Below, piece after piece: positions 6,386-19,374 of a stretch of 52,197 nt of DNA. This DNA comes from Gemmatimonadota bacterium. Lineage in GTDB: Bacteria; Gemmatimonadota; Gemmatimonadetes; Gemmatimonadales; Gemmatimonadaceae. A model generated the notes under the pieces. That model did not search any database, was not told the DNA's origin, and saw nothing but the letters and a program-made list of their open reading frames with translations. Every line of letters starts with the position of its first letter. Position 1 is the first letter of the stretch. Location of the stretch: NCBI GenBank assembly GCA_031127225.1, contig JARIEV010000007.1, positions 1 to 52,197 on the forward strand, in the 5' to 3' direction. The translations under genes were made by a program, and so were the position numbers.

Positions 6386-6940
6386 TCAGTCGCCTCCCTG
6401 CGAGAGCAACACGGTGCGTAACCGCTCCCGTGCCGTAAACAGCCGCGACTTGACCGTGCGTGCCGGCACCTCCAGCACCTCGGCGATCTCTTCGTACGAG
6501 AGTGACCCGAAATACCGCAGTACCACCACCGCTCGATCGTCCGGCTTCAAGACCGTCAGTGCCTTCCTCACCTGCTCCTCTGCCTCCAGTGCGTCATCCA
6601 CCGCCACCCCGGCCGCGGGAATGGCCAGCTGTTCCTCCAGCGTGACCATGGTCTTCCGCCCCTTGAGCACGTTCAACGACTGATTCACCGTCATCCGGTA
6701 GATCCAGCTGAAAAACCGGAAGCGCGGGTCGTACGTGGTCAGTGACCGGAACACGGTGCCAAAGACCTCCTGCGTTGCATCCTCGGCGTCCTGCGCATTG
6801 CCCAGCATGCGGAGCGCCACAGTGAACACGGGGCGCTGATACCGATCCACCAGATCCGTCGCCGCGCGCCGGTCCCCGTCCAGATAGCGCTGGACAAGGC
6901 TCCGATCGGCGGCGTCGCTCGCGGTGGGGGTCTCTTCCAC
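6386..6940 (-). CDS. ECF-type RNA polymerase sigma factor
   Basis: 184 residues from a GTG at 6940, which starts close to the conserved part; the frame stays open upstream to 7099 but those 53 residues are Arg/Pro-rich and not sigma-like. Region 2 is clear (DLVDRYQRPVFTVALRML, then NAQDAEDATQEVF, then FFSWIYRMTVNQSLNVL) and region 4 has the helix-turn-helix LSYEEIAEVLEVPARTVKSRL. It directs RNA polymerase to a dedicated promoter set and should be held by the membrane protein encoded 3 bp downstream. No convincing Shine-Dalgarno precedes the GTG, so the start is uncertain. Its 136-bp upstream spacer to the TonB receptor gene shows no obvious hairpin. Confidence 0.88.
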   Translation of the reverse strand: MEETPTASDAADRSLVQRYLDGDRRAATDLVDRYQRPVFTVALRMLGNAQDAEDATQEVFGTVFRSLTTYDPRFRFFSWIYRMTVNQSLNVLKGRKTMVTLEEQLAIPAAGVAVDDALEAEEQVRKALTVLKPDDRAVVVLRYFGSLSYEEIAEVLEVPARTVKSRLFTARERLRTVLLSQGGD

Positions 6941-7076
6941 AGTACAACTCAGCCGGCAAAAGGTTGGAAACAGTGCAGCGGCGCAACAGCCCAGGCGGGG
7001 GGGGCGTCGGGATGCCGGACCCGTCAGCCGGAAAAATGGCCTTTGTAACGGCCGAGGGGCAACCCATGCGCGGGCC

Positions 7077-9197
7077 TTACCGAACCATCTGCACCCCAAG
7101 CACCACCACCCGTCCTTCCTGCGGCGCCGGGGTGAGCACCCCGCGCAGGGCGTAGGCGTGATCGGTCAGGTTGCGCCCCTGCAGAAACAGCACCCAGCGC
7201 GGAGTCGGCATATACCGCACGGAGGCGTTCACTTCGTACGGGGTCTGCAGCGCACTCGCCAGCGCGCCGGGATTCGCGATCCCCTCCGGCGTGGAACGCA
7301 CCGACACACTCGGCGTCACCGACAGGGTGCGGAGCAGCTGCAGCGTGGCACCCAGCCGCAGGTTGTGCGCCGAGAGCCCGGCAAGCGTGGAGTCCACGGC
7401 GTCCGACGCCGAGCTCACCGCCACCGTGGAGTACGACGCCCACGCCGAGCCCCACGACCGGGTGAGCTGCGCGGACACGTCCACGCCGCGCACGGTGCGC
7501 TCGCCGCCGTTCACGGTGCGCGTGAGCAGGCGCTGGCCGCCGCCGGCCGCGTCGAGATACACCGTACGCGTGATGATGTTGGCCGGCAACAGCAGGTCGC
7601 CGATCAGGAACAGGTTGGACTGGCGGTTCACGTACGCGCTGGTGGTCACCTGCACGCCATCCGACCGCCAGCTCACGTTCCCCTCGTACGAGCGCGCCCG
7701 CTGTGTTTGCAGATCGGGATTGACCGTGTTGATCTGGATGCCGTTGTCATACACGTTGTAGCCGTAGTACGGCCCCGGCGCCACGAAGCCCTGCGCATAC
7801 GCCACGTGGTACGTGAGACGGCTGCCATCGGGGGAGAACACGATGTCGGCGCGCGTGCTCAGTGGGGTGTCCTTGAAGCGCGTGTTGTCGTCCACACGGC
7901 CGCCGGCGAGCAGCTGCAGCGCGCGGGTGGGCTGGTAGCGCGCCTGCACGTACCCCGAGGTGCCGCGATACGACAGATGCGTGGCCCGCGGCACATCCAC
8001 CCGTGACGTGGCATCGCCGCGCCGGGTGTAATACGACAGCACACCGGCCTGACGCACCACGTCATCGTTGGTGCGCGCGCCCCCGGGGATCGTAGCCTTC
8101 GGCGTCACTTCATAGAAGCTGGCCGTGGCACCGCCCGTGAGCGTGAGCTGCGACGACACCGTGTACCGTGCCTCCTGCTCGAGCGTCGTGCTGCTCCCCA
8201 GCGCGTACTTGAAATCGTTCAGGAACAGCGAGCCGTTCACGGGAAACACATAGCGCGTTTCGGGATCCACCTCGTAACGGTTCCACGTGATCGACGAACT
8301 CACGCGCAGCGGCGCGGTGAGCTGTGATTCGTGACGCCCTTCCACCACCAGCGACCGGTCGTGCCACACGCTCTGCGGCACGAACTGCAGCACCGGCGCC
8401 AGCCCGCCCTCGGCGCTGCTGCGCGACGACTCGCGGTACCACGCCTGCACCGACCCGCCGCCGTTCTCGACGCGCACGAACATGTTGGTGGCGTCGTCCT
8501 GCCGCGCCGGCGCGTCGGGGAGTCCGTACGCGCGCGCGTTCTGCGCGTACCCCTTCCACCACTCGGGAAAACGCCGGTCGAGACGCGACAGATCCGACCG
8601 CGAGCGCTGCGCGAATCCGGAAATCCGGATCGCGGTGTCAGACGCGCCACCCAGCCGCGTCGCGAACTGGATCCATCCCTCGGCGGTGCCCAGCGTACCC
8701 AGCGCCGCCACCGCCTCGACCCCGCGCCGCGCGTCGGCGGTGCCGGTGATGATGTCGATGACCGCACTCACCGCATTCTGGCCGTACGTGAGCGACCCCG
8801 GGCCGTAGCGCACCTCCACCCGTTCGGCGCCGCGCACGCTGACATCACGGCGCAGCATCAGTTCCTCGTCGCCGGGCGGGTTGACGCGCATCCCGTTCAC
8901 CAACAGCACGATCGCGTTGTTGCCCGAGAAGCCGCGCACCCCCACCGCCGTGCCCACTTCGGAGAAGTACTGCTCGACGGTTTCCATCCCCGGCAGATCA
9001 CGCAGCACATCGCTGAGTGCGGCGTAGCCACGCGCCACAATCTGCGCCTTGGTCACCACGTAGGTGGTGCCCAGGGCCGCCACGCTGCTGTCGTTGCGCT
9101 CCTGCGGCGTGGCGAGCGACTGTGCACCGGCGGCGGGCGCGAGGATCAGGGAGAGTGCCACAACACCGGCACGGGTGCGGAGAAAACGGAGCGACAT
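7077..9197 (-). CDS. TonB-dependent outer-membrane receptor
   Basis: About 706 residues from the ATG at 9197, which begins a good signal peptide (SLRFLRTRAGVVALSLILA, cleavage after AGA). The plug domain follows at about residues 35-150 (IVARGYAALSDVLRDLPG; VGVRGFSGNNAIVLLVNGMR; RVEVRYGPGSLTYGQNAVSAVIDIITG). The rest is a 22-strand-type barrel with paired aromatic strands such as HNLRLGATLQLL and SVRYMPTPRWVLFLQGRNLTD. It imports a substrate across the outer membrane using TonB energy. The plug style is that of the vitamin B12/siderophore/catecholate group, but the substrate cannot be read from sequence. Its 193-bp upstream region is divergent with a STAS gene and contains a long inverted repeat. 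Confidence 0.92.
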   Translation of the reverse strand: MSLRFLRTRAGVVALSLILAPAAGAQSLATPQERNDSSVAALGTTYVVTKAQIVARGYAALSDVLRDLPGMETVEQYFSEVGTAVGVRGFSGNNAIVLLVNGMRVNPPGDEELMLRRDVSVRGAERVEVRYGPGSLTYGQNAVSAVIDIITGTADARRGVEAVAALGTLGTAEGWIQFATRLGGASDTAIRISGFAQRSRSDLSRLDRRFPEWWKGYAQNARAYGLPDAPARQDDATNMFVRVENGGGSVQAWYRESSRSSAEGGLAPVLQFVPQSVWHDRSLVVEGRHESQLTAPLRVSSSITWNRYEVDPETRYVFPVNGSLFLNDFKYALGSSTTLEQEARYTVSSQLTLTGGATASFYEVTPKATIPGGARTNDDVVRQAGVLSYYTRRGDATSRVDVPRATHLSYRGTSGYVQARYQPTRALQLLAGGRVDDNTRFKDTPLSTRADIVFSPDGSRLTYHVAYAQGFVAPGPYYGYNVYDNGIQINTVNPDLQTQRARSYEGNVSWRSDGVQVTTSAYVNRQSNLFLIGDLLLPANIITRTVYLDAAGGGQRLLTRTVNGGERTVRGVDVSAQLTRSWGSAWASYSTVAVSSASDAVDSTLAGLSAHNLRLGATLQLLRTLSVTPSVSVRSTPEGIANPGALASALQTPYEVNASVRYMPTPRWVLFLQGRNLTDHAYALRGVLTPAPQEGRVVVLGVQMVR

Positions 9198-9276
9198 GCG
9201 CGAAGATGCAGAAGGAGCCCGCGCAATCGCGCCGGGGAAAGAGCAACAGAAGCGCGAAACGTATGCCACCCTCCCA

Positions 9277-9349
9277 GGTAACGCGAACGAGGCGTCCTAT
9301 GACCGGTGTGCCGCGTGCGCCCTCCCGAGGAGCGGCCGGGCGCGTTACC
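9277..9349. promoter_or_regulatory. Long inverted repeat in divergent promoter region
   Basis: GGTAACGCG at 9277-9285 is perfectly complementary to CGCGTTACC at 9341-9349, with 55 bases between. A competing inner pairing joins GCGCCC at 9317-9322 with GGGCGC at 9338-9343 and would steal part of the outer right arm. On the minus strand this sits about 80-150 nt ahead of the TonB receptor start, a normal place for a regulatory leader; it could equally be a pair of operator half-sites. I compared it by eye with the cobalamin, TPP and SAM riboswitch cores and saw no match. Confidence 0.35.
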
Positions 9350-9390
9350 GTTGGGGAGGCTCGGCGGCATGCGCCGAATCTCCCCTCCGC

Positions 9391-9744
9391 ATGGTGACGC
9401 ACGTGTTGACTCTTACACCACGACAGCAGCACGGCATCGGCATTCTGACCGTCGCCGGCCGCGTCGATCCCACCACCGTCGCGGAGTTCGAGGCCGGCGT
9501 ACAGGCACTGCTCCCCGAGGTGGGACACCGTCTCGTCCTCGATCTCACCGCCGTGCCCTTCATGAGCAGCCTCGGACTGCGAGTGCTCATGACGACGCTC
9601 GTGAGCGTGCGTGCCCAGCAGGGCGCACTCGTGATCTGCGGCCTCAGCGACGACCTCACCTCACTGTTCCGGATGGCGGGATTTTTGGGACTGTTCGAGA
9701 TCACCGCCACCGAAACCGACGCGCTGGCCAAGCTCGCGGTGTAG
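9391..9744 (+). CDS. STAS-domain anti-anti-sigma-factor-like protein
   Basis: 117 residues forming one STAS domain (SpoIIAA/RsbV type). The diagnostic loop is LVLDLTAVPFMSSLGLRVL; by alignment with SpoIIAA, S60 sits at the phosphorylated serine and the usual preceding Asp is Ser59. In partner switching the unphosphorylated protein sequesters a kinase/anti-sigma factor. No GHKL (RsbW-like) kinase is encoded anywhere in the window. Start is the ATG at 9391; a GTG one codon later is equally possible. The next gene, also with a STAS domain, begins 42 bp downstream after a short GC hairpin (9748-9762). First gene of the plus-strand run that ends at 14150. Confidence 0.85.
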   Translation: MVTHVLTLTPRQQHGIGILTVAGRVDPTTVAEFEAGVQALLPEVGHRLVLDLTAVPFMSSLGLRVLMTTLVSVRAQQGALVICGLSDDLTSLFRMAGFLGLFEITATETDALAKLAV

Positions 9745-9786
9745 TCCGCCGCCCGTGGCGGCATCCATCCTCCTACGCTGCGTGTC

Positions 9787-11961
9787 ATGGCCCTCGAGAT
9801 CACCGTCGACGCCGACCTGCTGGTTCTCTCCGGACGCCTTGACGCCGCGGGGGCAATCGCGCTCGACGCCTGGAAAGCGGATGCACCCACCGTCCCCGCC
9901 ATCTGGGACCTGCGGGCGCTCGCCTTTATCTCCAGCCTCGGCATCCGGAGTCTGATCACGCTCGATCGGCGTGTCCGCGCGGCGGGACAGCGGGTGCAGG
10001 TGGTGTACGTGGCGGAATCGTTCGTAGCCGACGTACTCACCGCCGCCGGCCTCACGAAGCAGTGGCCCATGCACACCGAGGTCGCGGCCGCGCGTGCCAC
10101 CGGGCAGTCGGTCGCGTCACCGGCACCATCGGCCGCCTGGACCGGCGCCGGCGGCGATCGCTATGCCCGCACACCGGCCCGCGGCACGGGACGGGTGTCC
10201 CGCTTCGAGACGGCCCCGGATGCGCCCGCGATGCTGGTGCGCTTCGATGAACTGGGGCTTGCCTTCGGCACGGGTGAATTCGGCACCGGCCCCGCTGATG
10301 AACCGGCGGCCGCCCTGGTGGCCACAGGGCACACCGTACTGGTGCACACCGCCGACGGCCTGACCGATCTGCTCGACACCGTGTCGCCCGCCACCACCTT
10401 CGCCCGCCTCGTCGACGCCGTGCGGCTCGACCTCGACGACGCGGAACGGTGGGACGCCGAGGGCGATGTCACGTGGGGGCGCCTCCGCGCCGACCTGGAG
10501 GCGCAGGCGGCCACCGCCGGTACCGGTCCGTGGGCCGCCGGCGCGCTGGCCAGCTGGAACGACCGGCCGTGCGTGCTCCTGATGTTCGCCCCCGAGGGCG
10601 AGGGCCACCGCGAAGGCCACGACGAGGCGCTGCGCGTGGTGGCGCTGCGTGCCGTGGCCGACCCGAACACCGCCCCGCAGGCGGGCGGAGCGACCACGTT
10701 GGCCGAGGCCGCGGCCGCACTGGCCCGCGGCGACGACGCCGAAATCTGCTGGCCCGACGACGCCACCACGTTGCGCGGCGCGCGCGTGTGGTTCGCCCCG
10801 ACGCCCACCATCGTGGACGGCGGCGCGCACCGGTTGGTCATCGAAGCGGCCGAGCCGGTGGCGGACGCGTGGGAGCGGATCATCCGCTCCACCTTTGCCG
10901 ACGAGGCCCGCGTGTCGCTGCGCCGCCTCACCGGCGGGTTCATGGCGTCTACATTCGCCACCGACACACACGACCGGCACGGCCGGCGCACGCTCCCCAG
11001 CGTGCTCAAAATCAGTCCGCGCGCCGTGACCGCACGCGAGGAGGCGGCGTATCAGCAGTACGTGCGGCCGTTCATCCTGAACAACGCCACCGTGCTCATG
11101 GCGCAGGCCGTGCACGGAGAATACGCGGGGCTGCGCTACAACTTTCTGGGGATCACGGGCGGCGAGTCACGGCTGCAACCGCTGGAGTCGCTCTACCTCG
11201 GCGACACGCCGGCGGAGGCGATGACGGCCATCCGGCAGACGCTCACGAACGTGCTGCGGCCGTGGTACGGGCAGGCTGTGGTGGCGCCGGTGCAGCCATT
11301 CGCCGACCACGATCCGCGGGGGTTGTTCACCAACCTCCCCGCCGTGGCGCAGGAGGTACTGGGCGTCGACCTTGACGCCCCGTGGATCGAATGCCCGCCG
11401 CTGGGGCGCAGCGTCCTCAACCCGTACCATTTCCTGCAACACCGGTGGGACGCGCTGCGCGGGTACACCGCGTCGTGGGCCACGTCGATCACGCACGGCG
11501 ACCTCAATCTCAACAATGTCCTGGTCGACGAGCGGCGCAACATCTACGTGATCGACTTTTCCGAGACGAAGGTGCGCAACGTGGCCGCCGACTTCGCGCG
11601 GCTCGAAGCCATCGGCATGTTGCAGCACACGCGACTCGAGCACGACGACGATGCGCGCGCGGTGCTCACGCAGGTGGCCCGCTCGCTGGAGGGGGCCGTC
11701 TGGACGCCGCCCGCCGCGGACGTACCGCAGGAGCCCATGCTGGCGCGTGCGGCGGCGCTGGCCGCGGACGTCCGCGGGCTGGCGTCTGAGCATGTGGCCG
11801 ACCCGGCGCACGAGGCGGCGTATCTGCTGCCGCTCCTGGAGTGGAGTGCACCGATCGTCGCCTTCCGGCAGGTGGAACGCGTCCGGAAGCAGGTGGCGAT
11901 GTGGTCGAGCGGGTTGATGCTGGAGCGTCTGTTGCACGCCCTCGCGTTGCCCGCGGTGTAG
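9787..11961 (+). CDS. STAS domain fused to APH/protein-kinase-like domain (TCAD9-like)
   Basis: 724 residues. Residues 1-90 are a STAS domain with FISSLGIRSL carrying the phosphoacceptor-type serine. Residues about 135-360 form an unrecognised alpha/beta region. From about 380 a kinase-fold domain follows: a nucleotide loop-like LTGGFMAST, the lysine in PSVLKIS, a helix-C glutamate in REEAAYQQY, the catalytic HGDLNLNN (H570, D572, N577) and the metal-binding D590 in IDFSE. This is the aminoglycoside-phosphotransferase-like fold. It recalls a domain I remember as TCAD9 from MoxR/vWA 'ternary' conflict systems, and a MoxR-vWA operon does lie on the facing strand. The catalytic residues look intact. 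It could phosphorylate STAS serines in place of a GHKL kinase; that is hypothesis. Confidence 0.75.
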   Translation: MALEITVDADLLVLSGRLDAAGAIALDAWKADAPTVPAIWDLRALAFISSLGIRSLITLDRRVRAAGQRVQVVYVAESFVADVLTAAGLTKQWPMHTEVAAARATGQSVASPAPSAAWTGAGGDRYARTPARGTGRVSRFETAPDAPAMLVRFDELGLAFGTGEFGTGPADEPAAALVATGHTVLVHTADGLTDLLDTVSPATTFARLVDAVRLDLDDAERWDAEGDVTWGRLRADLEAQAATAGTGPWAAGALASWNDRPCVLLMFAPEGEGHREGHDEALRVVALRAVADPNTAPQAGGATTLAEAAAALARGDDAEICWPDDATTLRGARVWFAPTPTIVDGGAHRLVIEAAEPVADAWERIIRSTFADEARVSLRRLTGGFMASTFATDTHDRHGRRTLPSVLKISPRAVTAREEAAYQQYVRPFILNNATVLMAQAVHGEYAGLRYNFLGITGGESRLQPLESLYLGDTPAEAMTAIRQTLTNVLRPWYGQAVVAPVQPFADHDPRGLFTNLPAVAQEVLGVDLDAPWIECPPLGRSVLNPYHFLQHRWDALRGYTASWATSITHGDLNLNNVLVDERRNIYVIDFSETKVRNVAADFARLEAIGMLQHTRLEHDDDARAVLTQVARSLEGAVWTPPAADVPQEPMLARAAALAADVRGLASEHVADPAHEAAYLLPLLEWSAPIVAFRQVERVRKQVAMWSSGLMLERLLHALALPAV

Positions 11962-12092
11962 CGGACCACGCAGACCACCGATGCCGGCGGGATGCGAGTG
12001 GCGTCGTATCACGGACTGGACTAGGTATCCGTGCACATGATCGGAGGCCACGACGTGGCACTCGACCTCTCCTTGTCTCCGGTCCCATCGCG

Positions 12093-13121
12093 TTGTCTCT
12101 GGAACTGCGGCTCACCACCACCCCGCTCAACGCCGAGTACGTACCGGGCGTCCACACGCGGCTCACGACCAACTTCGGCAATCTCGCCAAGGATCCGCTT
12201 GGACGCGGTGAACGGATCGCGGCCACGCTGGCCACCATGGACCGGCGGTTTCACGAGCTGATGGGCGCGTCCGGCGACCCGGAGCGGTACGGGCTCGCCC
12301 TCGACATCGTCACCATCGGCGTCCGCTTCACCGACGGCGTCACGGACAGCGACTGGTTTCCGATGACGGAGACGCTTCGCTGCCGGATCCATGACCGCCG
12401 GCAGGATCGTTGGCTCGCGGGACCTACGGGCGGCAATTATTCGTCGTATGTGCGCGACCACGATTTCAACGTGGTCCTGCCGCGCATCCGCGCCGGCACC
12501 GCGACCCCCGAGGAGATGGCGTCCTTCGGCCAGTTGCATGGCCTGCTCTTCCGACTGCAGTTCCAGCGTCATCACCCCGCCGGCGTGCTCCACGAGCCGC
12601 TCATCATCGCCATCAGTGCGTCGAGCGGCCGCAGCTATCGCCGCAGCAGAATCGTGCACCCGGTGCTGGGCCACGCGTACCTCCCCGAGCGCGGCGAATC
12701 GCCGACCAGCCGGTACTTCGCGCAGATGGGGCTGGAGGTGTCGTACTTCATGCCGCCGGGCAACCGCGCGCCGCTGGCCTTCTACCACGAGCCTGGCGAT
12801 CTGACCGGGCGTGATCAACCGTACCTGGCCGCGCTGGTCGCGATCATGGACACCTTCGAACGCATCTACCGCCCGGAGATCTACTGTGCCCGCACGCCGG
12901 CGGCGGCGCTGTTCCGCCCCGATCTGGCCAATACGGAGTACGACGCGCCGCCGGCCATCTACGACCGCGTGGAGCGCGACACCACCCTCGGCCCGCAGCA
13001 GGCAGCGCTGGTGCGTGACGCGTTTCTGCACCCCAATGCCGCTGCACTCCGCCAGCTCATGGCGGACCATGCGCATCTCCTGCACGGGCTGACCACCGGC
13101 GTCGCACATGCCGCTCGCTGA
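12093..13121 (+). CDS. mesX: MesX-like putative oxygenase (DUF1852)
   Basis: 342 residues from a TTG at 12093; no ATG or GTG exists in frame nearby, and the N-terminus then aligns with the family (SLELRLTTTPLNAEYVP). Conserved DUF1852 stretches are plain: TRLTTNFGNLA, GGNYSSYVRDHDFNVVLP, SGRSYRRSRIVHPVLG, MGLEVSYFMPPGNRAPLAF and ERIYRPEIY. Family knowledge: MesX is needed together with the core-MetE protein MesD for a folate-independent, oxygen-dependent methionine synthase. No MetE/MesD gene is in this window, so the partner must be elsewhere or the protein has another role. A SAM synthetase is encoded 1 kb away on the facing strand. The gene overlaps the next one by 14 bp. The 131 bp upstream lack a clear Shine-Dalgarno. 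Confidence 0.82.
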   Translation: MSLELRLTTTPLNAEYVPGVHTRLTTNFGNLAKDPLGRGERIAATLATMDRRFHELMGASGDPERYGLALDIVTIGVRFTDGVTDSDWFPMTETLRCRIHDRRQDRWLAGPTGGNYSSYVRDHDFNVVLPRIRAGTATPEEMASFGQLHGLLFRLQFQRHHPAGVLHEPLIIAISASSGRSYRRSRIVHPVLGHAYLPERGESPTSRYFAQMGLEVSYFMPPGNRAPLAFYHEPGDLTGRDQPYLAALVAIMDTFERIYRPEIYCARTPAAALFRPDLANTEYDAPPAIYDRVERDTTLGPQQAALVRDAFLHPNAAALRQLMADHAHLLHGLTTGVAHAAR

Positions 13122-13707
13122 ACTCTTCGGATGGCTGGCGGCCGTCCTCGTGTTCACCGCCTTCTGGTCCACCACGATGGTGCGGCTCCGGATGGTGGCC
13201 ATGGCCAGCAACGTCGCCTTCATCGTGTACGGCGTGATGCTCGGTGCGCCGAGTATCATTGCGTTGCACGGCGTGCTGCTGCCGCTCAATGGCTGGAAAT
13301 TGATCCGGCTGCGTCAGCTCGCGGCCTTAGTCCGACGTGCCTCGCGCGGCCCGATGACACTCGAGATGCTCGTGCCAGCGATGGAACAGCAACGGTATGG
13401 CGCGGGGGCGATACTGTTCCGTCAGGGCGACCCCGCCGATCACGTCTTCTTCGTGATCGACGGGACGCTGCGGGTAGTCGAAGGCGGCACGCTGCTCGGC
13501 CCCGGCGAACTCGTGGGGGAAATGGGGCTCTTCGCGGCCGACAGTCGCCGCACCGCGACGATCGTCACCGAGACCGATGTGCGGTGCGGGCGGATTGCGG
13601 CGGATCGGTTCTGGGAGCTGTTTCTGCAGGATCCTGTGCTGGGCGGGTTCGTGGTGCGCACCATCGTGCAGCGACTCGCCGGCACACCACACACCACGCC
13701 ACCATGA
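13108..13707 (+). CDS. Membrane-anchored cyclic-nucleotide-binding-domain protein
   Basis: 199 residues. Residues 1-72 contain three short hydrophobic segments (LFGWLAAVLVFTAFW; MVAMASNVAFIVYGVML; IIALHGVLLPLNGWKLI), an arrangement like Popeye-type proteins. Residues 85-195 are a CRP-type cNMP-binding domain: ILFRQGDPADHVFFVIDGTLRV, then the phosphate-binding-cassette region GELVGEMGLFAADSRRTATIV. The Gly-Glu of the cassette is present, and the Arg-Thr of the RRTAT segment fits cyclic nucleotide binding. There is no DNA-binding helix-turn-helix, so it is a sensor rather than a transcription factor. Starts inside the end of mesX (14-bp overlap) and ends in an ATGA overlap with the next STAS gene, indicating one operon. 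Confidence 0.82.
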   Translation: MPLAELFGWLAAVLVFTAFWSTTMVRLRMVAMASNVAFIVYGVMLGAPSIIALHGVLLPLNGWKLIRLRQLAALVRRASRGPMTLEMLVPAMEQQRYGAGAILFRQGDPADHVFFVIDGTLRVVEGGTLLGPGELVGEMGLFAADSRRTATIVTETDVRCGRIAADRFWELFLQDPVLGGFVVRTIVQRLAGTPHTTPP

Positions 13708-14150
13708 CCGACCATTCGCACCACGCACCGCCGCCACGGAGCGCCCTCCAGCTGGGCGTTGAACGGGAGGGCCCCGCCGCCGTCGTGACGATGGCCGGCC
13801 AGATGGACGGGGCTACGGCCACGCAGTTCACCGCGTTCCTGGACCAACACCTCACCGACGAAGACCGGTGTGTGGTGCTCGATGCCACGGGACTCACCTT
13901 CCTGAGCAGCGCAGGGCTGCGCGAACTGATGCTGCTGCTCCGGCGTCTCGCGAAGCATCAAGCCAAGCCGGCCATTTTTGGCATGACCCCACCGGTCGCG
14001 CTGGCTCTGGGGATCTCGGGATTCGAGACGATGGTCATCCGCGCGCCGGACCGCGCGTCGGCCGTGCACGCCGTCACCCCGGTCACCCCCGCCGCGGCGG
14101 ACAAAGCGGGGCTGTTCTCGCGCTTCTTCACGGGCGGGGCGACGTCGTAA
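13704..14150 (+). CDS. STAS-domain anti-anti-sigma-factor-like protein
   Basis: 148 residues: a 12-residue His/Pro-rich leader, then a STAS domain (about 15-115) with CVVLDATGLTFLSSAGLRELMLLL carrying the phosphoacceptor-type serine in FLSSAGL, then a short Ala/Pro-rich tail ending LFSRFFTGGATS. The ATG overlaps the TGA of the cNMP-binding gene (ATGA), so translation is probably coupled. It is the third STAS domain in 4.8 kb. Likely a phosphorylation-switched partner for a kinase or anti-sigma factor; the kinase-fold protein two genes upstream is the only local candidate. The gene converges on the SAM synthetase gene across 21 bp. Confidence 0.85.
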   Translation: MTDHSHHAPPPRSALQLGVEREGPAAVVTMAGQMDGATATQFTAFLDQHLTDEDRCVVLDATGLTFLSSAGLRELMLLLRRLAKHQAKPAIFGMTPPVALALGISGFETMVIRAPDRASAVHAVTPVTPAAADKAGLFSRFFTGGATS

Positions 14151-14171
14151 CCCGTCGGGGGTAAGGGCTGG

Positions 14172-15401
14172 TTACGCCAGCGCCATGGCGCCGTGGGTCG
14201 GGGCACATTCGTCCGGCGTGCGCCCGAAGTGACCCGCGCGGGCCCGGTTCTCCCAGTTCACGCGGGCCAGCCCCAGCGCCGCGTGCGTGGCCGAGAGGCT
14301 CGGATCGAAGCGCGCGAGCCACCGCGCGGTGGCCGTCGCGTCCAGTACGCGACCGTCAGCCACGAGCGTGACACCGCTGGGGCGCTGATCCCGCGGCCCC
14401 CACACGAACGTCACCTGCGCCTCGCGCACGAACCCCGTTTCCACCATCGCCACTGCGATCTGCCGCGCGCGCAACGCGCCCGCGCGATCGAGACGCCAGG
14501 GGTCTTTCCCCGACAGCGCACCACCGCCGATGGGCACACGCGGGCCGTAGAAGTCCATCACCAGCTTGCGGCCGGTCTGCCCGTTATCGTTCATCGGACC
14601 GCCGTCGGTGAAGGGACCCGCCTCGTTCACGCGCACCACGAAGTCGGGGCCGGGTGCCGTGAGCAGCTCAGGCATCCGCGCCGCCTCCTCGCGCAGCACG
14701 CGCGTGAACAGCTCCCGCACCGCGCGCTCCAGCACCACCGTGGGCGCGGCTGCGATGTGCTGTACGCTGCTCACCACCCACGCCGGTGAGTAGCGCACAA
14801 AGCCGTCGGCACTCACTCCCACTGCGCGCAACGCCACCAGCAGCTTGCCATCCGGCCCGGCGCCCAGCGTGCGATCGGCCACGGTGAGCGTGAGCAGCGC
14901 GTCGCGCAACGTCAGCGCCAGATGCTGCTCCAGAGGCAGCCACTGGGTTTCCGGCGTGCCGATGGCGTACCCGATGTGGATGGCCTGATCGTCGGTGTAC
15001 TCGCGCATCGCGCGCTCGTCGGGGTCCGACTCGTCGATCGTGCAGGCGAGTTGCACCTCCACCTGATCGGGACGCGGGCACTGGTAATCGGTGCCGTCGC
15101 CCACGCCCTCGAACGGCACACCAAAGCCGGCGCGCTCGTACACGCCACGCACGGTCGCCTCCACATACGCGCGGTCCAACGCGCCTCCGGCCGTGGAGAC
15201 GCGGCCGTTCACGTGACAGATGTGCTGGTGCACGGCCACCTCCACCTGCACGATCGCGCGATCGTCCTGCGCGAGCGCGATGTCGACGATGGCGTCGGCG
15301 ATCTGGTCGGCGAGCTTATCAGGATGTCCCGGCAGCACCGCTTCGGCGAAGCGCAGCCCAGCCGCACTGATGTCGTGATGGTTGCTCATGTGATCACTCA
15401 T
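14172..15401 (-). CDS. metK: Divergent S-adenosylmethionine synthetase (methionine adenosyltransferase)
   Basis: 409 residues from the ATG at 15401, 2 bp after the vWA gene stop; an ATG 4 codons later is also possible. Compared from memory with E. coli MetK, catalytic positions are kept: H26-P-D-K in LPGHPDKLADQIADAIVD, the Asp of TDDQAIHIGYA, the Lys of PDGKLLV, TGRK, and GGGALSGKDPWRLDRA (the second lysine of that loop is Arg). It should make S-adenosylmethionine from ATP and methionine. Overall it diverges strongly from housekeeping MetK (for example VNEAGPFTDGGPMNDNG), and its place as last gene of a MoxR/vWA operon suggests a specialised paralog. Whether the genome has a second, housekeeping metK is not visible here. 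Confidence 0.85.
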   Translation of the reverse strand: MSDHMSNHHDISAAGLRFAEAVLPGHPDKLADQIADAIVDIALAQDDRAIVQVEVAVHQHICHVNGRVSTAGGALDRAYVEATVRGVYERAGFGVPFEGVGDGTDYQCPRPDQVEVQLACTIDESDPDERAMREYTDDQAIHIGYAIGTPETQWLPLEQHLALTLRDALLTLTVADRTLGAGPDGKLLVALRAVGVSADGFVRYSPAWVVSSVQHIAAAPTVVLERAVRELFTRVLREEAARMPELLTAPGPDFVVRVNEAGPFTDGGPMNDNGQTGRKLVMDFYGPRVPIGGGALSGKDPWRLDRAGALRARQIAVAMVETGFVREAQVTFVWGPRDQRPSGVTLVADGRVLDATATARWLARFDPSLSATHAALGLARVNWENRARAGHFGRTPDECAPTHGAMALA

Positions 15402-15403
15402 GA

Positions 15404-16915
15404 TCAGGAACCCGGTGTAGGAAGAGGAGTGGTGCTGTGCAGCCATGGCGCGCCGGTATGCAGCGGGCCGCCACCCACGACACCCACATGCAACGCCACC
15501 TGCGCGCGGCCCAGTGCGGCGCTCGTGGCCGCGGGCACGCGCTCGAGGTGACCATCGGTGAGCACGATGGCGGCGCTGCCGGCGGGGAGCTGTTGCGTGG
15601 CGTGTGTGATTACCGCGCAGATCGCGGTGCCACCGTTGGACGGCACCATGCCGCTCTCCAGCTCGTGCGCCGATGCGGCCACCACGACCGTGGAGAACCA
15701 GTACACGGTGGGCTCGATCTCACGGCACAGCGTGATCAGCGCGCGTCGCAGATGCGGCAGGAGCTGCCCCATGCTGCCGCTCACATCCACGTAAATAGCC
15801 ACCTCCTGCGGCTCGCGCCTGCGCTCGTACACGTGTCCATCAAACAGCAATGGCATCGGGGCCCCCAGCAGCGCCGCCGCGCGCATTCGGCACGCCGCCC
15901 GCCGATCGTGCATGCGGTGCACCACACGCACGTCGCGCTGCCGCCACGATACCCGCGTGCCGCCCGCGCCGTTCGGTTTGATGGCCTTCCGCAGCAGCGT
16001 ACGCAGTGCCTGCTCCAGCGCCGGTGTCCGCGACGCATCACGCACCGGCGTGAGCCCCACGTGTTCACCGCGGCCGGGAAGCTGCCCGCACAAGGGCTCG
16101 AGCGCCGACGCCAGCAGTTCGGCCGCGTCGTGATCGCGCGAACCTCTGATGGCATCGCGGTCAGCCGCGGTGTCGCCGTGCGCCCCGAGCAGCGGCACGC
16201 CCTCCGCCTGGGACTCGCCGCCTTCGCGCAAGGCGGCGATGATGTCGGCGTACGTGACCTGCGTGTACCGCGGCACGCGTGACTCCCATCCGTTACCAGC
16301 GGCGTCCGCGAAACGCGTCAGGTCATAGAGATCGCGATGAATGTCGCGGAGCGCCGGTGGCATCGCGTGCGATGCGCTCCAGTCGGGCGCCAACGGCCAC
16401 CCCGGCGGCGGTCGCAAAATGAATTCCGGCGCTTTGCTGGCCGAGTAGAAGTCGGTGAAGAGGTCGGTATAGCGCTCGATGTCGTAGCCGAATTGCACCG
16501 CGCTGTGGCGCACGCGTGTGCCCTGAATGGCCGCCAGCAGCGTACGGTTGATGATGGCGTCGAAGGCGATGTTGTGCGCGAGCGTGGGGCGCGGAAAGAG
16601 ACGCGTATGGCCGAGGGCGATGTGCAGCAGTTCGTGCAGCACCAGCGTGGCCAACCGCTCGGGGGTGTGGCACCACTGTGCCACGAAACTCGGGTTGAGC
16701 AACAGGCGCGGCCGGTCCACGCACTCCACGCAGGCCGTGGCCGTGGCGTCGCTCCATTCCACCGTCGACACGGTGAGCAGCGCGTTGATGGCGTGTGCGT
16801 GGACACCCACCAGCTCGAGTACGCGCGCCACCCGCGCGTCGGCGGTGCCGAACGCATCGCCGGAGGCGGTGCCCAATGCGGTGCGCGCGAGTGGTGGCAT
16901 GTGGGCGGCGGTCAT
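15404..16915 (-). CDS. DUF2201-type metallopeptidase fused to vWA-like domain
   Basis: 503 residues from the ATG at 16915, which overlaps the previous stop (ATGA); the open frame further upstream is not family-like. Residues about 25-300 are the DUF2201 metallopeptidase-like part with HELLH at 94-98 in LATLVLHELLHIALGHTR, followed by NIAFDAIINRTLL. Residues about 365-490 are a vWA-like domain with the metal-ion site D377-V-S379-G-S381 in IYVDVSGSMGQ and a later Thr in GGTAICAVI plus Asp in IVLTDGHLER. Proteins of this kind are encoded next to MoxR ATPases and are thought to act with them as a chaperone or metal-insertion pair. Here the MoxR is two genes upstream in the same overlapping operon. 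Confidence 0.85.
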   Translation of the reverse strand: MTAAHMPPLARTALGTASGDAFGTADARVARVLELVGVHAHAINALLTVSTVEWSDATATACVECVDRPRLLLNPSFVAQWCHTPERLATLVLHELLHIALGHTRLFPRPTLAHNIAFDAIINRTLLAAIQGTRVRHSAVQFGYDIERYTDLFTDFYSASKAPEFILRPPPGWPLAPDWSASHAMPPALRDIHRDLYDLTRFADAAGNGWESRVPRYTQVTYADIIAALREGGESQAEGVPLLGAHGDTAADRDAIRGSRDHDAAELLASALEPLCGQLPGRGEHVGLTPVRDASRTPALEQALRTLLRKAIKPNGAGGTRVSWRQRDVRVVHRMHDRRAACRMRAAALLGAPMPLLFDGHVYERRREPQEVAIYVDVSGSMGQLLPHLRRALITLCREIEPTVYWFSTVVVAASAHELESGMVPSNGGTAICAVITHATQQLPAGSAAIVLTDGHLERVPAATSAALGRAQVALHVGVVGGGPLHTGAPWLHSTTPLPTPGS

Positions 16916-17595
16916 TGTGACACACCAGTAGCTGTCCCAGCGCCGAACCACCGCACCATGAGGGAGTGACCCAGGCGAAACCACATCAGCGACGGCTGTC
17001 GGTTGAACAGCAGAATCGGCGGCGACGCGCAGGCGATCGCGACGAGTCCCCACGCCAGCGGAGCAATGCGATTATTGGCGCCGCACGACAGCCACGGCAG
17101 CGGTCTGCGCTCCTTTACGTAGTCGTACGTCACGCAGCTCACGAGGCCGTGAAACGGCGGCAGCAGCTGGCGATCGCGGAGGACGTCGCGCAGTTCAGCG
17201 ATCGACGCTATCGCGCGCTCCTCCATGCTCCGCGTGACCGGTGTGCCCTGTGGTGGGGCGTTGCCCGCGAGGGCATTGATGACGCCTCTGGACGAGCGCA
17301 TGACGTCGGCCGGTGCCCCAAGCTTCACCAGGGCCGAACAGGCGGCGCCGTGAATGAGCGCCGGATGCAGTCGCACACCGGAGGCGTAGCTGTTGCAGCC
17401 TTCGAGTGCATGCGTGAGCTTGGCCATCGTGAGCAGCGTGGTCACGATGAAGTAGCTCGACATGTCCACCTGTACGCCCACGGCCCCGGTGCGATAGGTG
17501 TTGTTGGGCATGGGCCCGGAGTTGTGGTAGGCCGGTACGAAGTCGGCGGCGTACCTACCGGCGGCCGGCGGCAGTGGCTGACGGCGCGCGGTCAT
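16912..17595 (-). CDS. Unrecognised protein between MoxR and DUF2201-vWA
   Basis: 227 residues from the ATG at 17595, overlapping the MoxR stop by 4 bp; its own stop overlaps the next ATG by 4 bp. I do not recognise a family. The N-terminus is Arg/Pro-rich; residues about 40-120 contain YRTGAVGVQVDMSSYFIVTTLLTMAKLTHALEG broken by polar residues, predicted helical; the C-terminal third has a fairly hydrophobic stretch (IAPLAWGLVAIACASPPILL) that could be buried or membrane-associated. Four cysteines are scattered in the middle and C-terminal parts (GCNSYAS, GAACSAL, SCVTYDY, SCGANNR). Its fixed position suggests a third subunit or client of the MoxR-vWA pair. Confidence 0.7.
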   Translation of the reverse strand: MTARRQPLPPAAGRYAADFVPAYHNSGPMPNNTYRTGAVGVQVDMSSYFIVTTLLTMAKLTHALEGCNSYASGVRLHPALIHGAACSALVKLGAPADVMRSSRGVINALAGNAPPQGTPVTRSMEERAIASIAELRDVLRDRQLLPPFHGLVSCVTYDYVKERRPLPWLSCGANNRIAPLAWGLVAIACASPPILLFNRQPSLMWFRLGHSLMVRWFGAGTATGVSQ

Positions 17596-19097
17596 ACCAC
17601 CCTCAGCTGCGTAGCCAGCGACGCCAGGCAGGCCTCGCGCACCTCCAACAGGCGCACGATCACGCGGTCCGCATCGGGCAGTGGCACGCCGGTGAGCTGC
17701 TGCGCCGGCGTGCAGCACGTGGCGATCACGCCGTGCATGAACTCGAGGTCGTTGGCCGGCAGCGCGGTGAGCGACAAGCGACGCCGCACATCAATGGCCC
17801 ACGTGCGATGCGGACCGAACCCCCGCACCTCGGCGCCGCCATACGCGATCCCCGACACCAACGACGCCACCGTCTCCACGGCGGTGGCGGGCACGAGTTC
17901 GCGCTCGAGCAAGGTGGGCAACACCGTCCACGCCAGCATGGTGGATTCCGCGGCGGGCAGATCCGCCAGCGCCGTGCACAGCGCTTCCCCGCGAATCACC
18001 GACGACACCCCCGGCAACGACAACGACAGCAGCGCGCGACGCAGCGGATCGCGCACCGACAGCAGCGTGCGGCGCGGATCGTCGTCGCTCATGGACGTTT
18101 CGCGCCACGCCGCTTCGTGCGCGGCCAGCAATGTGGCGCGCGACACTCTGGTGCGCACCACGTCGGGAATCGACGACAGCACCGCGGCTCGGCAGGCGCG
18201 TTCGTCGCTCGCGAGGCCGAGTGCAAGGTGGGCGGCACGAAGAGCGACGACGTTGCGCAGCAGCATGGCGGCGCGGCGTCCGCCGATCACGATCTTGGCG
18301 GCGCCAAGCTTGGCGATGAGCACATCCACGTACGTCGCGAGCGCGTCCCCCGAGGTGGCGCGCACGGTGGGGATGAGCGCCTTGGTGGCGTACACCAGTT
18401 CGCGCACCGTGTTGGCGGCACTCGCCGTTGGCGCGTCGCCCACGCCGCCGATGATGAGCCTGCGGTCGGCGTCGCTCAAGTCCGCGAAGCGCGGCAGCGA
18501 CACGATGAACGCGAAGCGATCGGCCAGGGCGGGGTCGAGCGGTTCCACGCCGTCGTAGCGACCGTCGTCGTCGCTGGCCTGCGCATCGGGGGGCGGGTTG
18601 GTGGCGGCCCAGCGATAGCGCAGCCGTTCGATGGCCACGCCCTGGATGCGCTTCTCGTGGATGACGGGGAACAGCTTGTTGGCAACGTCGGGGCGACAGC
18701 GGCCGATCTCGTCGAAGAACGCCACCTCGGCCTCCCAGATCGCCCCCGGTGGCGCCGCGTAGCGAATGGCGCCGGCATCATCGGGAATGGGGAAGCCGAT
18801 GAGATCGTCGAACTGGAGGATGCTGGCGTTGTAGTGCCGGAGCGCGAGGCTTAATGCGTTGGCGAGTCGCACCAGCAGCAGCGTTTTCGCGGCGCCGTGA
18901 TCGCTCACGAGCAGCAGCGGTTCCTCGGTGGCGAGTGCGGCGAGGAGCGCGGGCTCGAGGGTGTCGTAGCCCACGACGCCGAGCGGGCGGAGGAGCGAGC
19001 GGGGCGCCGATGCCGGGGTGCCGGCGACGGCAACGGCGACGGGAGCGACGGGAGCGACGGCACGCTTGCGTCGCATTCGTGGAACAACGACTGCCAT
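17592..19097 (-). CDS. MoxR-family AAA+ ATPase
   Basis: 501 residues. The ATG at 19097 is fixed by a strong GGAGG seven bases upstream. After a basic, Ala/Val-rich leader (1-40) the AAA+ core follows: Walker A variant SDHGAAKTL with K71, Walker B VAFFDEIGR (D129, E130), a sensor-1 region WAATNPPPD and an arginine region DPALADRFAF. The C-terminal about 250 residues form the lid and an unrecognised extension. MoxR ATPases work with vWA proteins to mature or dismantle target complexes. First gene of a four-gene minus-strand operon. The Walker A has Ala where GxxGxGK[ST] usually has Gly, a substitution seen in some MoxR/RavA relatives, so activity is plausible but untested. Confidence 0.88.
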   Translation of the reverse strand: MAVVVPRMRRKRAVAPVAPVAVAVAGTPASAPRSLLRPLGVVGYDTLEPALLAALATEEPLLLVSDHGAAKTLLLVRLANALSLALRHYNASILQFDDLIGFPIPDDAGAIRYAAPPGAIWEAEVAFFDEIGRCRPDVANKLFPVIHEKRIQGVAIERLRYRWAATNPPPDAQASDDDGRYDGVEPLDPALADRFAFIVSLPRFADLSDADRRLIIGGVGDAPTASAANTVRELVYATKALIPTVRATSGDALATYVDVLIAKLGAAKIVIGGRRAAMLLRNVVALRAAHLALGLASDERACRAAVLSSIPDVVRTRVSRATLLAAHEAAWRETSMSDDDPRRTLLSVRDPLRRALLSLSLPGVSSVIRGEALCTALADLPAAESTMLAWTVLPTLLERELVPATAVETVASLVSGIAYGGAEVRGFGPHRTWAIDVRRRLSLTALPANDLEFMHGVIATCCTPAQQLTGVPLPDADRVIVRLLEVREACLASLATQLRVV

Positions 19098-19104
19098 GGA
19101 GATA

Positions 19105-19109
19105 CCTCC
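19105..19109 (-). promoter_or_regulatory. Shine-Dalgarno deciding the MoxR start
   Basis: GGAGG on the minus strand, seven bases before the ATG at 19097. It rules out the earlier in-frame start at 19139. Confidence 0.75.
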
Positions 19110-19136
19110 GCGCAGGAACTGCGCAGAGCGCGACGC

Positions 19137-19152
19137 CACGCCGGCCGGCGTG
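19137..19152. promoter_or_regulatory. Perfect 16-bp palindrome upstream of the MoxR operon
   Basis: CACGCCGGCCGGCGTG reads the same on both strands and lies 40 bp before the MoxR start codon, in a spacer that has no gene. Position and symmetry suit an operator for a dimeric repressor. GC-rich palindromes also arise by chance in such a genome, so the call is tentative. Confidence 0.35.
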
Positions 19153-19256
19153 ATGTCAGTGGTCCGCTTTAGTGGACTTCTTTAGCGTCGCGCCACAAGC
19201 TGGCCGAATCAAATCGCGACGTGGTACGGTGGTACGGGACGGCGACGGCAGACAAC

Positions 19257-19289
19257 AAAAAAGCCCGGTCAGCGAAATCGCTGCCGGGC
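19257..19289 (-). terminator. Rho-independent terminator
   Basis: On the minus strand an 11-bp GC-rich stem (arms 19263-19274 and 19279-19289, one bulged base, four-base loop) is followed by six T (19257-19262). It lies about 85 bp beyond the stop of the AraC-type regulator gene and separates that unit from the MoxR operon. This is the clearest intrinsic terminator in the window. Confidence 0.85.
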
Positions 19290-19374
19290 CGGTGTGCTGG
19301 ACGGGAAGCGGTTTAGCTGAATTTGTAACGCGGCCAGCAATCGCCAGAAAGCGCCGCGGTGTTAGTCAAAGAAG

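Follow-up and report, generated by a model that had tools for sequence, protein, structure and literature searches.

In the described MoxR AAA+/vWA pairs NorQ-NorD, CbbQ-CbbO and RavA-ViaA, an ATPase ring and a partner protein whose vWA domain has an intact metal ion-dependent adhesion site (MIDAS) are encoded together. According to the accessible part of PMC9976466, such pairs act by remodelling a specific client or by metal insertion and are among the least studied AAA+ systems. Few of their clients are known. Here we describe an operon with such a pair in a contig of 52,197 nucleotides (JARIEV010000007.1; hereafter the window, meaning this whole 52-kb stretch) from a 3.6 Mb metagenome-assembled genome (MAG) of the Gemmatimonadota that is 84% complete. 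The operon, module A (14172-19367, minus strand), encodes a MoxR-type ATPase, a third protein of no known family, an HExxH-vWA protein and a divergent methionine adenosyltransferase (MAT) that we call MetKd, behind a leader with a riboswitch for S-adenosylmethionine (SAM). The gene order MoxR / third protein / HExxH-vWA protein / divergent MetK recurs across several phyla, namely in Gemmatimonadota, Verrucomicrobiota, Lentisphaerota, Planctomycetota, actinobacteria and one deltaproteobacterium (lineage names are those of the record titles), and module A is apparently an undescribed bacterial operon. In the literature searched, no paper named both a SAM riboswitch and MoxR, and among the papers listed none described this operon by title or abstract start, which is not proof of absence. 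Unlike NorQ-NorD, CbbQ-CbbO and RavA-ViaA, module A adds a DUF2201-type HExxH domain, a third protein and SAM riboswitch control, and its client would apparently be a MAT. With moderate confidence, we favour the reading that module A is a SAM-repressed MoxR-vWA remodelling machine dedicated to MAT, together with a MAT paralogue with a rebuilt substrate site. The riboswitch in front of the machine links it to SAM metabolism and names a candidate client.

The MoxR gene (17592..19097, minus strand, alternative start 19139) matched AAA_5 with 27.9 bits (cut-off 22), and its place in the order is conserved in relatives. The motifs GAAKT and FFDE, which we take to be the Walker motifs, are readable in the product. 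RavA chains were the only solved MoxR relatives found by sequence at E-values up to 0.01, and the bpMoxR match of 17.4 bits was under the cut-off of 27. The partner gene (15404..16915, minus strand) encodes a DUF2201-type HExxH domain (DUF2201_N, 33.5 bits) and a vWA domain with DxSGS (VWA_CoxE, 23.7 bits, under the cut-off of 26.4). Both HELxH and DxSGS are conserved in 10 aligned vWA members, and the invariant DxSGS indicates that an adjacent vWA protein with a MIDAS accompanies the ATPase. Between the two genes lies that of the third protein (16912..17595, minus strand), with 227 residues, HNSG..YRTG in its tail and no Pfam match, in agreement with the original prediction from the letters of this DNA, which had listed it as an unknown third subunit. 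The model of this fast-evolving protein reached a predicted template modelling (pTM) score of 0.73, with residues 1-38 at low confidence as a predicted unstructured N-terminal tail, and a fold search gave no PDB match with an E-value up to 0.001. By inspection, the third proteins linked to MetKd mostly share the N-terminal motif HN(M/S)(S/G)..P..R(T/S), with clear variants.

MetKd (14172..15401, minus strand, alternative start 15446) is the last gene of the operon. Its N- and C-terminal S-AdoMet_synt domains scored above the Pfam cut-offs (82.9 bits for the C-terminal one) and the middle domain below. The predicted structure has the MAT fold (pLDDT confidence score 83), and the best 50 Foldseek matches listed were all MATs. 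In a tree with 58 canonical MetK sequences, 27 MetKd sequences formed one clade (support 1.0, stem 1.9). An earlier tree of 19 divergent and 28 canonical sequences, which left out the canonical loci L104, L119 and L126 and the fragment L071 (loci, genomes and contigs are given by our handles L, G and C), also had a single MetKd clade with support 1.0; the residue alignment of the 27 and 58 sequences dropped no row. MetKd shares with MetK/MAT2A the fold, the motifs GHPDK/GHPDR, DDQ, GRK/GKK and GGGA..GKD and, in human MAT2A numbering, nine catalytic positions kept in every readable row (His29, Asp31, Glu57, Asp134, Lys181, Asp258, Lys265, Lys285 and Asp291). We rejected a decaying pseudogene on account of these kept positions.

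The differences from MetK/MAT2A, besides the separate clade, lie elsewhere in the active site. Glu70, which holds the amine of methionine according to the accessible part of PMC6850014, is Glu in 56 of the 57 readable canonical rows and Arg in 25 of the 27 MetKd, the other two having Cys (L090, deltaproteobacterial) and Tyr (L228, actinobacterial). Ile322, a residue of the S-alkyl pocket that has been mutated for expanded methionine-binding pockets (PMC5729408, as far as its accessible part goes), is Ile in 58/58 canonical rows and Pro in 26/27 MetKd, the exception (L167) having a reading broken near that position. The QSPD string, in which the gating-loop Gln113 lies, is absent from all 27 MetKd rows and was found by pattern in 41 of 58 canonical ones, where the aligned column is Q in 57 and a gap in one; the alignment of this loop is uncertain in MetKd, so the absence of QSPD is the safe statement. 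When compared with the 12 catalytic residues listed in the accessible part of PMC7271947, 8 were kept in all readable MetKd rows. Of the other four, Glu70 is replaced in 27/27, the Gln113 column (with the same alignment uncertainty) has no Gln, and at Arg264 and Lys289 the residue is either K or R, except for S in two. Given the changes at Glu70 and Ile322, an unaltered L-methionine site in MetKd seems unlikely. A MAT paralogue that has exchanged its methionine-holding acid across several phyla, in nearly all members for a residue of opposite charge, points to adenosyl chemistry of which we found no assay in the literature searched. Short stretches resembling the MetKd C-terminus were also observed in L051 (about 7760-7901; G000:C121), L052 (1348-1413; G309:C393) and L223 (7404-7499), and are perhaps remnants of lost copies.

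The leader of module A (19148-19367, minus strand) did not figure in the original prediction. Just upstream of MoxR it holds a SAM-II riboswitch aptamer (19148..19230; RF00521, 40.9 bits, gathering threshold 36, E 1.5e-6), and farther upstream a weak SAM-II-like copy (19292..19367; RF00521, 22.4 bits, below the gathering threshold of 36, E 0.16). Between the two, a terminator-like hairpin followed by TTTTTT (19245..19300) folds at -27.9 kcal/mol (z-score -4.5, 0 of 200 shuffles as good), though a simple pattern scan of the leader found no terminator. The arrangement resembles that of known tandem SAM aptamers, where two aptamers follow each other and a predicted hairpin and poly-U tract separate them; module A differs in that a SAM-II aptamer and a SAM-II-like copy precede a MoxR-vWA-MetK operon. 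The sequence of both the SAM-II element and the weak copy is conserved in three relatives. In other lineages, different aptamers occupy the same place. These are SAM-I/IV elements in L071, L089, L166, L167 and L224 (two actinobacterial loci, the genomes G057 and G362 with the tandem arrangement, and G710), with L166 and L167 as the two relatives that have them in tandem. SAM-I also lies upstream of the MoxR-third-vWA trio in two Hydrogenedentota loci without MetKd (L082 and L084). With sensitive searches, SAM-I/IV matches under the threshold also appeared ahead of the operon in L063, L066, L073, L086, L222 and L223.

We then built our own RNA model from eight of these leader RNAs, with E-values that are rough because of a short calibration. 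It matched seven leaders on which it had not been trained at E < 1e-3 (L073, L081, L221, L222, L223, L259 and L260), the element of L221 lying approximately 0.9 kb from MoxR, and L091 at E 0.011. As a control, 67 other sources (317 kb), which were the window and loci with module B (the opposing operon, described below) or with only weak matches, gave a single match, in L185, on the strand opposite to a weak vWA match. The count of leaders covered 26 trio operons in which MoxR was present and the leader could be read. Of these operons, 23 had MetKd, two had canonical metK and one was cut before that gene; Chloroflexota and Hydrogenedentota were kept apart, and L259, L260 and L262 were searched with our own model only. 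Nine of the 26 leaders carried a riboswitch at the Rfam threshold and seven more at E < 1e-3 with our model; among the remainder, L063, part of the training set, was just under threshold and L091 was at 0.011. Across the loci scanned at the Rfam threshold, a single SAM riboswitch was located outside the operon leader. It is of the SAM-I/IV class and belongs to L221 (region 10557-11384), where it stands on the other strand close to a gene for a ThiS-like sulfur carrier; the trio is in that neighbourhood too.

Genome contigs were scanned with a vWA alignment, which gave 37 loci. The divergent MetK directly follows the vWA gene in 17 of them, including L071, where it is limited to the first 53 matched residues at a contig end. 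The remaining 20 comprise 17 loci from Chloroflexota, two from Hydrogenedentota and one whose contig stops within the vWA gene. Samples taken by phylum gave strong vWA matches (E < 1e-50, a few of them truncated where a contig ends) for 11 of the 395 genomes from the phylum to which the window belongs, its own genome included, for 5 of 387 from the phylum of G317, itself included, and for 1 of 396 from that of G323, namely G323 alone. With so few matches, the distribution of module A is rare and patchy. In a reverse test, the MetKd profile alone was run against 334 genomes of the Planctomycetota, the phylum of G325. Scores were bimodal, with five genes at 377-541 bits and the next at 224 bits. 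One of the five was already known, and all four new ones stood behind MoxR-x-vWA in the same order (the MoxR of L261 is cut by the contig end). The best canonical MetK in this test was not behind MoxR-vWA. In G574 and G594, the trio instead stands behind a canonical metK (55-57% identity), which lies upstream of it.

Some loci showed features of their own. The MoxR of L057 (6243-7225; G310) lacks the stretch matching residues 132-289 of the MoxR protein in the window, which is a real deletion or an assembly error. In L066, a second MoxR-like / DUF2201-vWA pair (542-2892) lies upstream of the trio operon. L226 (4963-8198), more distantly related, has its genes in the order vWA, small gene, MoxR; many other small genes on the same strand surround them, and a mobile element may carry the region. 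In the two Hydrogenedentota loci (L082, 9512-15237; L084, 10452-17302), an Eco57I-type methylase gene comes after the SAM-I-led trio. In L082 a PLD/SNF2 helicase gene is next, and in L084 the gene at this place begins similarly. A contig labelled Candidatus Kuenenia (L058 / L169) matches a window-genus contig in size and hits, and its MAG label looks wrong.

Taken together, control by riboswitches, the presence of metK in the operon and the outcome of the reverse test make SAM synthesis the likely context of module A, and MetKd or MetK its likely client. We propose that module A serves SAM homeostasis. At low SAM, the riboswitches would permit transcription and translation of the operon, yielding a MoxR AAA+ ring, the HExxH-vWA protein, the third protein and MetKd. 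The first three would form a remodelling machine like other MoxR-vWA pairs, the conserved N-terminal tail of the third protein probably docking onto a partner. Its dedicated client would be a MAT, MetKd in most genomes and ordinary MetK in two. MetKd appears to keep the ATP-splitting half of the active site and to have the methionine-holding half rebuilt, and it probably either transfers the adenosyl group to some substrate that is not L-methionine or depends on the machine for the opening or reshaping of its site. A bolder version, which is possible and which we hold only tentatively, is that MetKd is a new adenosyltransferase that produces an analogue of SAM, or SAM itself out of some unusual precursor, and works only with a dedicated MoxR-vWA 'MAT activase'; a shortage of SAM would then switch on the whole set, by way of unrelated riboswitch classes that different lineages have recruited.

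Several observations weigh against the SAM-repressed, MAT-dedicated machine. MetKd scored 151.6 bits on the NCBIfam metK model TIGR01034, far from its cut-off of 309.4. Two of the 26 leaders gave only weak riboswitch matches (L066 and L086) and six gave none (L060, L069, L090, L168, L170 and L262). A related vWA protein is present in each of the 17 Chloroflexota loci, with MoxR detectable in 13; no MetKd was found on these loci or in their genomes, and no SAM riboswitch in any of them at the Rfam threshold, so a tie between machine and MetK does not hold everywhere. Of these 17 genomes and two Hydrogenedentota ones, 18 had only canonical MetK and one had none. The N-terminal motif of the third protein was not seen in nine aligned Chloroflexota third proteins, and no direct profile similarity was detected between the window type and the Chloroflexota type. 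An actinobacterial third protein with the motif (L089) is homologous to a Chloroflexota version (28%, E 3e-10); part of the series is linked through intermediates alone, and for the window type no direct similarity to these versions was detected.

Other roles for the same genes were weighed. MetKd could be a weakened regulatory subunit, or 'prozyme', that joins ordinary MetK and is loaded or stripped by the trio to tune SAM synthesis. Canonical MetK is present in 12 of the 14 MetKd genomes tested and in two trio operons, and the loss of the methionine contact Glu70 with retention of the ATP-side positions would suit such a subunit. That every readable row keeps the nine catalytic positions argues instead for retained chemistry, and in G316 and G320 MetKd was the only MetK found (these MAGs may be incomplete); we regard the subunit role as unlikely. 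It is more doubtful still that the trio matures another methionine or SAM enzyme, such as B12-dependent MetH, with MetKd as a co-regulated passenger. The Chloroflexota trio without MetKd and metA after MetKd in L069 would be in keeping with this, as would the domain for MetH reactivation, which 24 of the 28 tested trio genomes have, but MetH is common and its presence says little, and the four MetKd genes found blind were all beside a trio. The same count, which includes the window's own genome, led us to reject the trio as a replacement for methionine synthase. As for a conflict device like the MoxR-vWA ternary systems of Kaur et al. (2020), with the trio as a thresholding machine and MetKd as a captured effector, it is very improbable. 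Those systems, as described in the accessible part of PMC7159879, likewise combine genes for MoxR, a vWA protein and a third component in one operon. In favour of such a device, the operon next to module A contains TCAD9, which by its Pfam name is a ternary-complex associated domain, and a methylase gene adjoins the trio in the two Hydrogenedentota loci, in L082 with a helicase gene behind it. However, the TCAD9 operon is independent of module A (see below), none of the third components described in that part of the source (VMAP, iSTAND, FtsH, beta-propeller) was recognised in module A, whose third protein has no Pfam match, bpMoxR was below its cut-off, and module A has a MetK and a SAM riboswitch instead, control by the latter fitting metabolism. 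The original prediction had suggested a stress- or conflict-response device and asked whether the set sits in defence islands. PADLOC gave only weak or shared-domain matches, and of eight flanking proteins scanned, six belonged to ordinary families and two to none, which does not bear this out and led us to reject a defence system. The vWA protein had no match in phage and plasmid collections, and an origin of module A from either was rejected too.

The two modules of the window also had to be told apart. The original prediction described nine genes in two tight convergent operons, and all nine were located as described, with the junction overlaps and domains borne out by coordinates and Pfam scores. 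Module B (9391-14150, plus strand) faces module A with 21 bp between the stops (14150/14172); within the operons, genes overlap at 13108/13121 and by 4 bp each at 13704-13707, 16912-16915 and 17592-17595. Adjacency and convergence in the window were what favoured a single nine-gene device. We looked for both modules in 30 genomes of the genus, taking TCAD9 above cut-off as the marker of module B (5/30) and divergent MetK with at least 60% identity as that of module A (6/30, including a fragment in G250). Four genomes hold both (G000, G289, G309 and G219), and the modules are adjacent in only one of the four, in the window; G289, G309 and G219 have them on separate contigs, the module A contig of G219 ending after MoxR-third-vWA, hence without visible MetK. 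G302 and G310 carry module A only. G311 has the whole of module B, with TonB receptor, STAS, STAS-kinase, MesX, cNMP and STAS genes in window order, at 86.8% DNA identity across 6915-14148, and no divergent MetK was found in its genome; past this point it has other genes (for HupE/UreJ-like and PAP2-like proteins). In G289, contig C5 has the STAS and STAS-kinase genes without MesX, cNMP or the third STAS gene, and contig C59 has MoxR-third-vWA-MetK with DNA similarity spanning 14233-19363. The end of similarity at 14148 in G311 and its start at 14233 in G289 place the boundary between the modules at about 14150-14230. MAG incompleteness weakens each single absence and not the positive separations in G289 and G309. 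Since relatives carry either module alone or both on separate contigs, the single-system idea fell by the refuting test that the original prediction itself had set, and we rejected the nine-gene device, whose probability we consider negligible; module B is a signalling module of its own, which most likely stands beside module A by chance. The proposed tie to methionine/SAM chemistry was supported, and considerably strengthened, for module A alone, through its riboswitches and MetK linkage.

Module B, shared with G311 and partly with G289, G309 and G219, begins with a STAS protein (9391..9744, plus strand as all its genes; STAS 61.7 bits, scanned from 9430). The next gene (9787..11961) encodes a STAS + TCAD9 kinase-fold protein (TCAD9 126.7 bits) with orthologues in G289, G309, G311 and G219. 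Its N-terminal STAS match is below cut-off (20.3 bits against 22.6), Pfam identified nothing in its middle region, and HGDLNLNN and DFSE are readable in its sequence, in line with the intact kinase motifs first reported for it. MesX follows (DUF1852, PF08908; 12099..13121, with the true start uncertain at about 12093-12099; 246.8 bits). Then come a protein with a membrane segment and a cNMP-binding domain (13108..13707; cNMP_binding 72.7 bits), whose segment before that domain resembles the membrane protein YgjV (23.2 bits, cut-off 23.5), and a further STAS protein (13704..14150; 43.5 bits). The MesX family PF08908 is common to module B and the MesD/MesX methionine synthase described in the accessible part of PMC7857596. 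Unlike that system, module B has its MesX in a STAS/kinase operon, and PF01717 (the MesD/MetE family) was found in none of the 30 genus genomes, the window's own being the 84% complete MAG; MesX itself was found in two. This orphan MesX perhaps has another role. Together with the three STAS domains, the intact-looking kinase fold and the membrane cNMP protein, it suggests that module B is a signalling operon with an oxygenase output.

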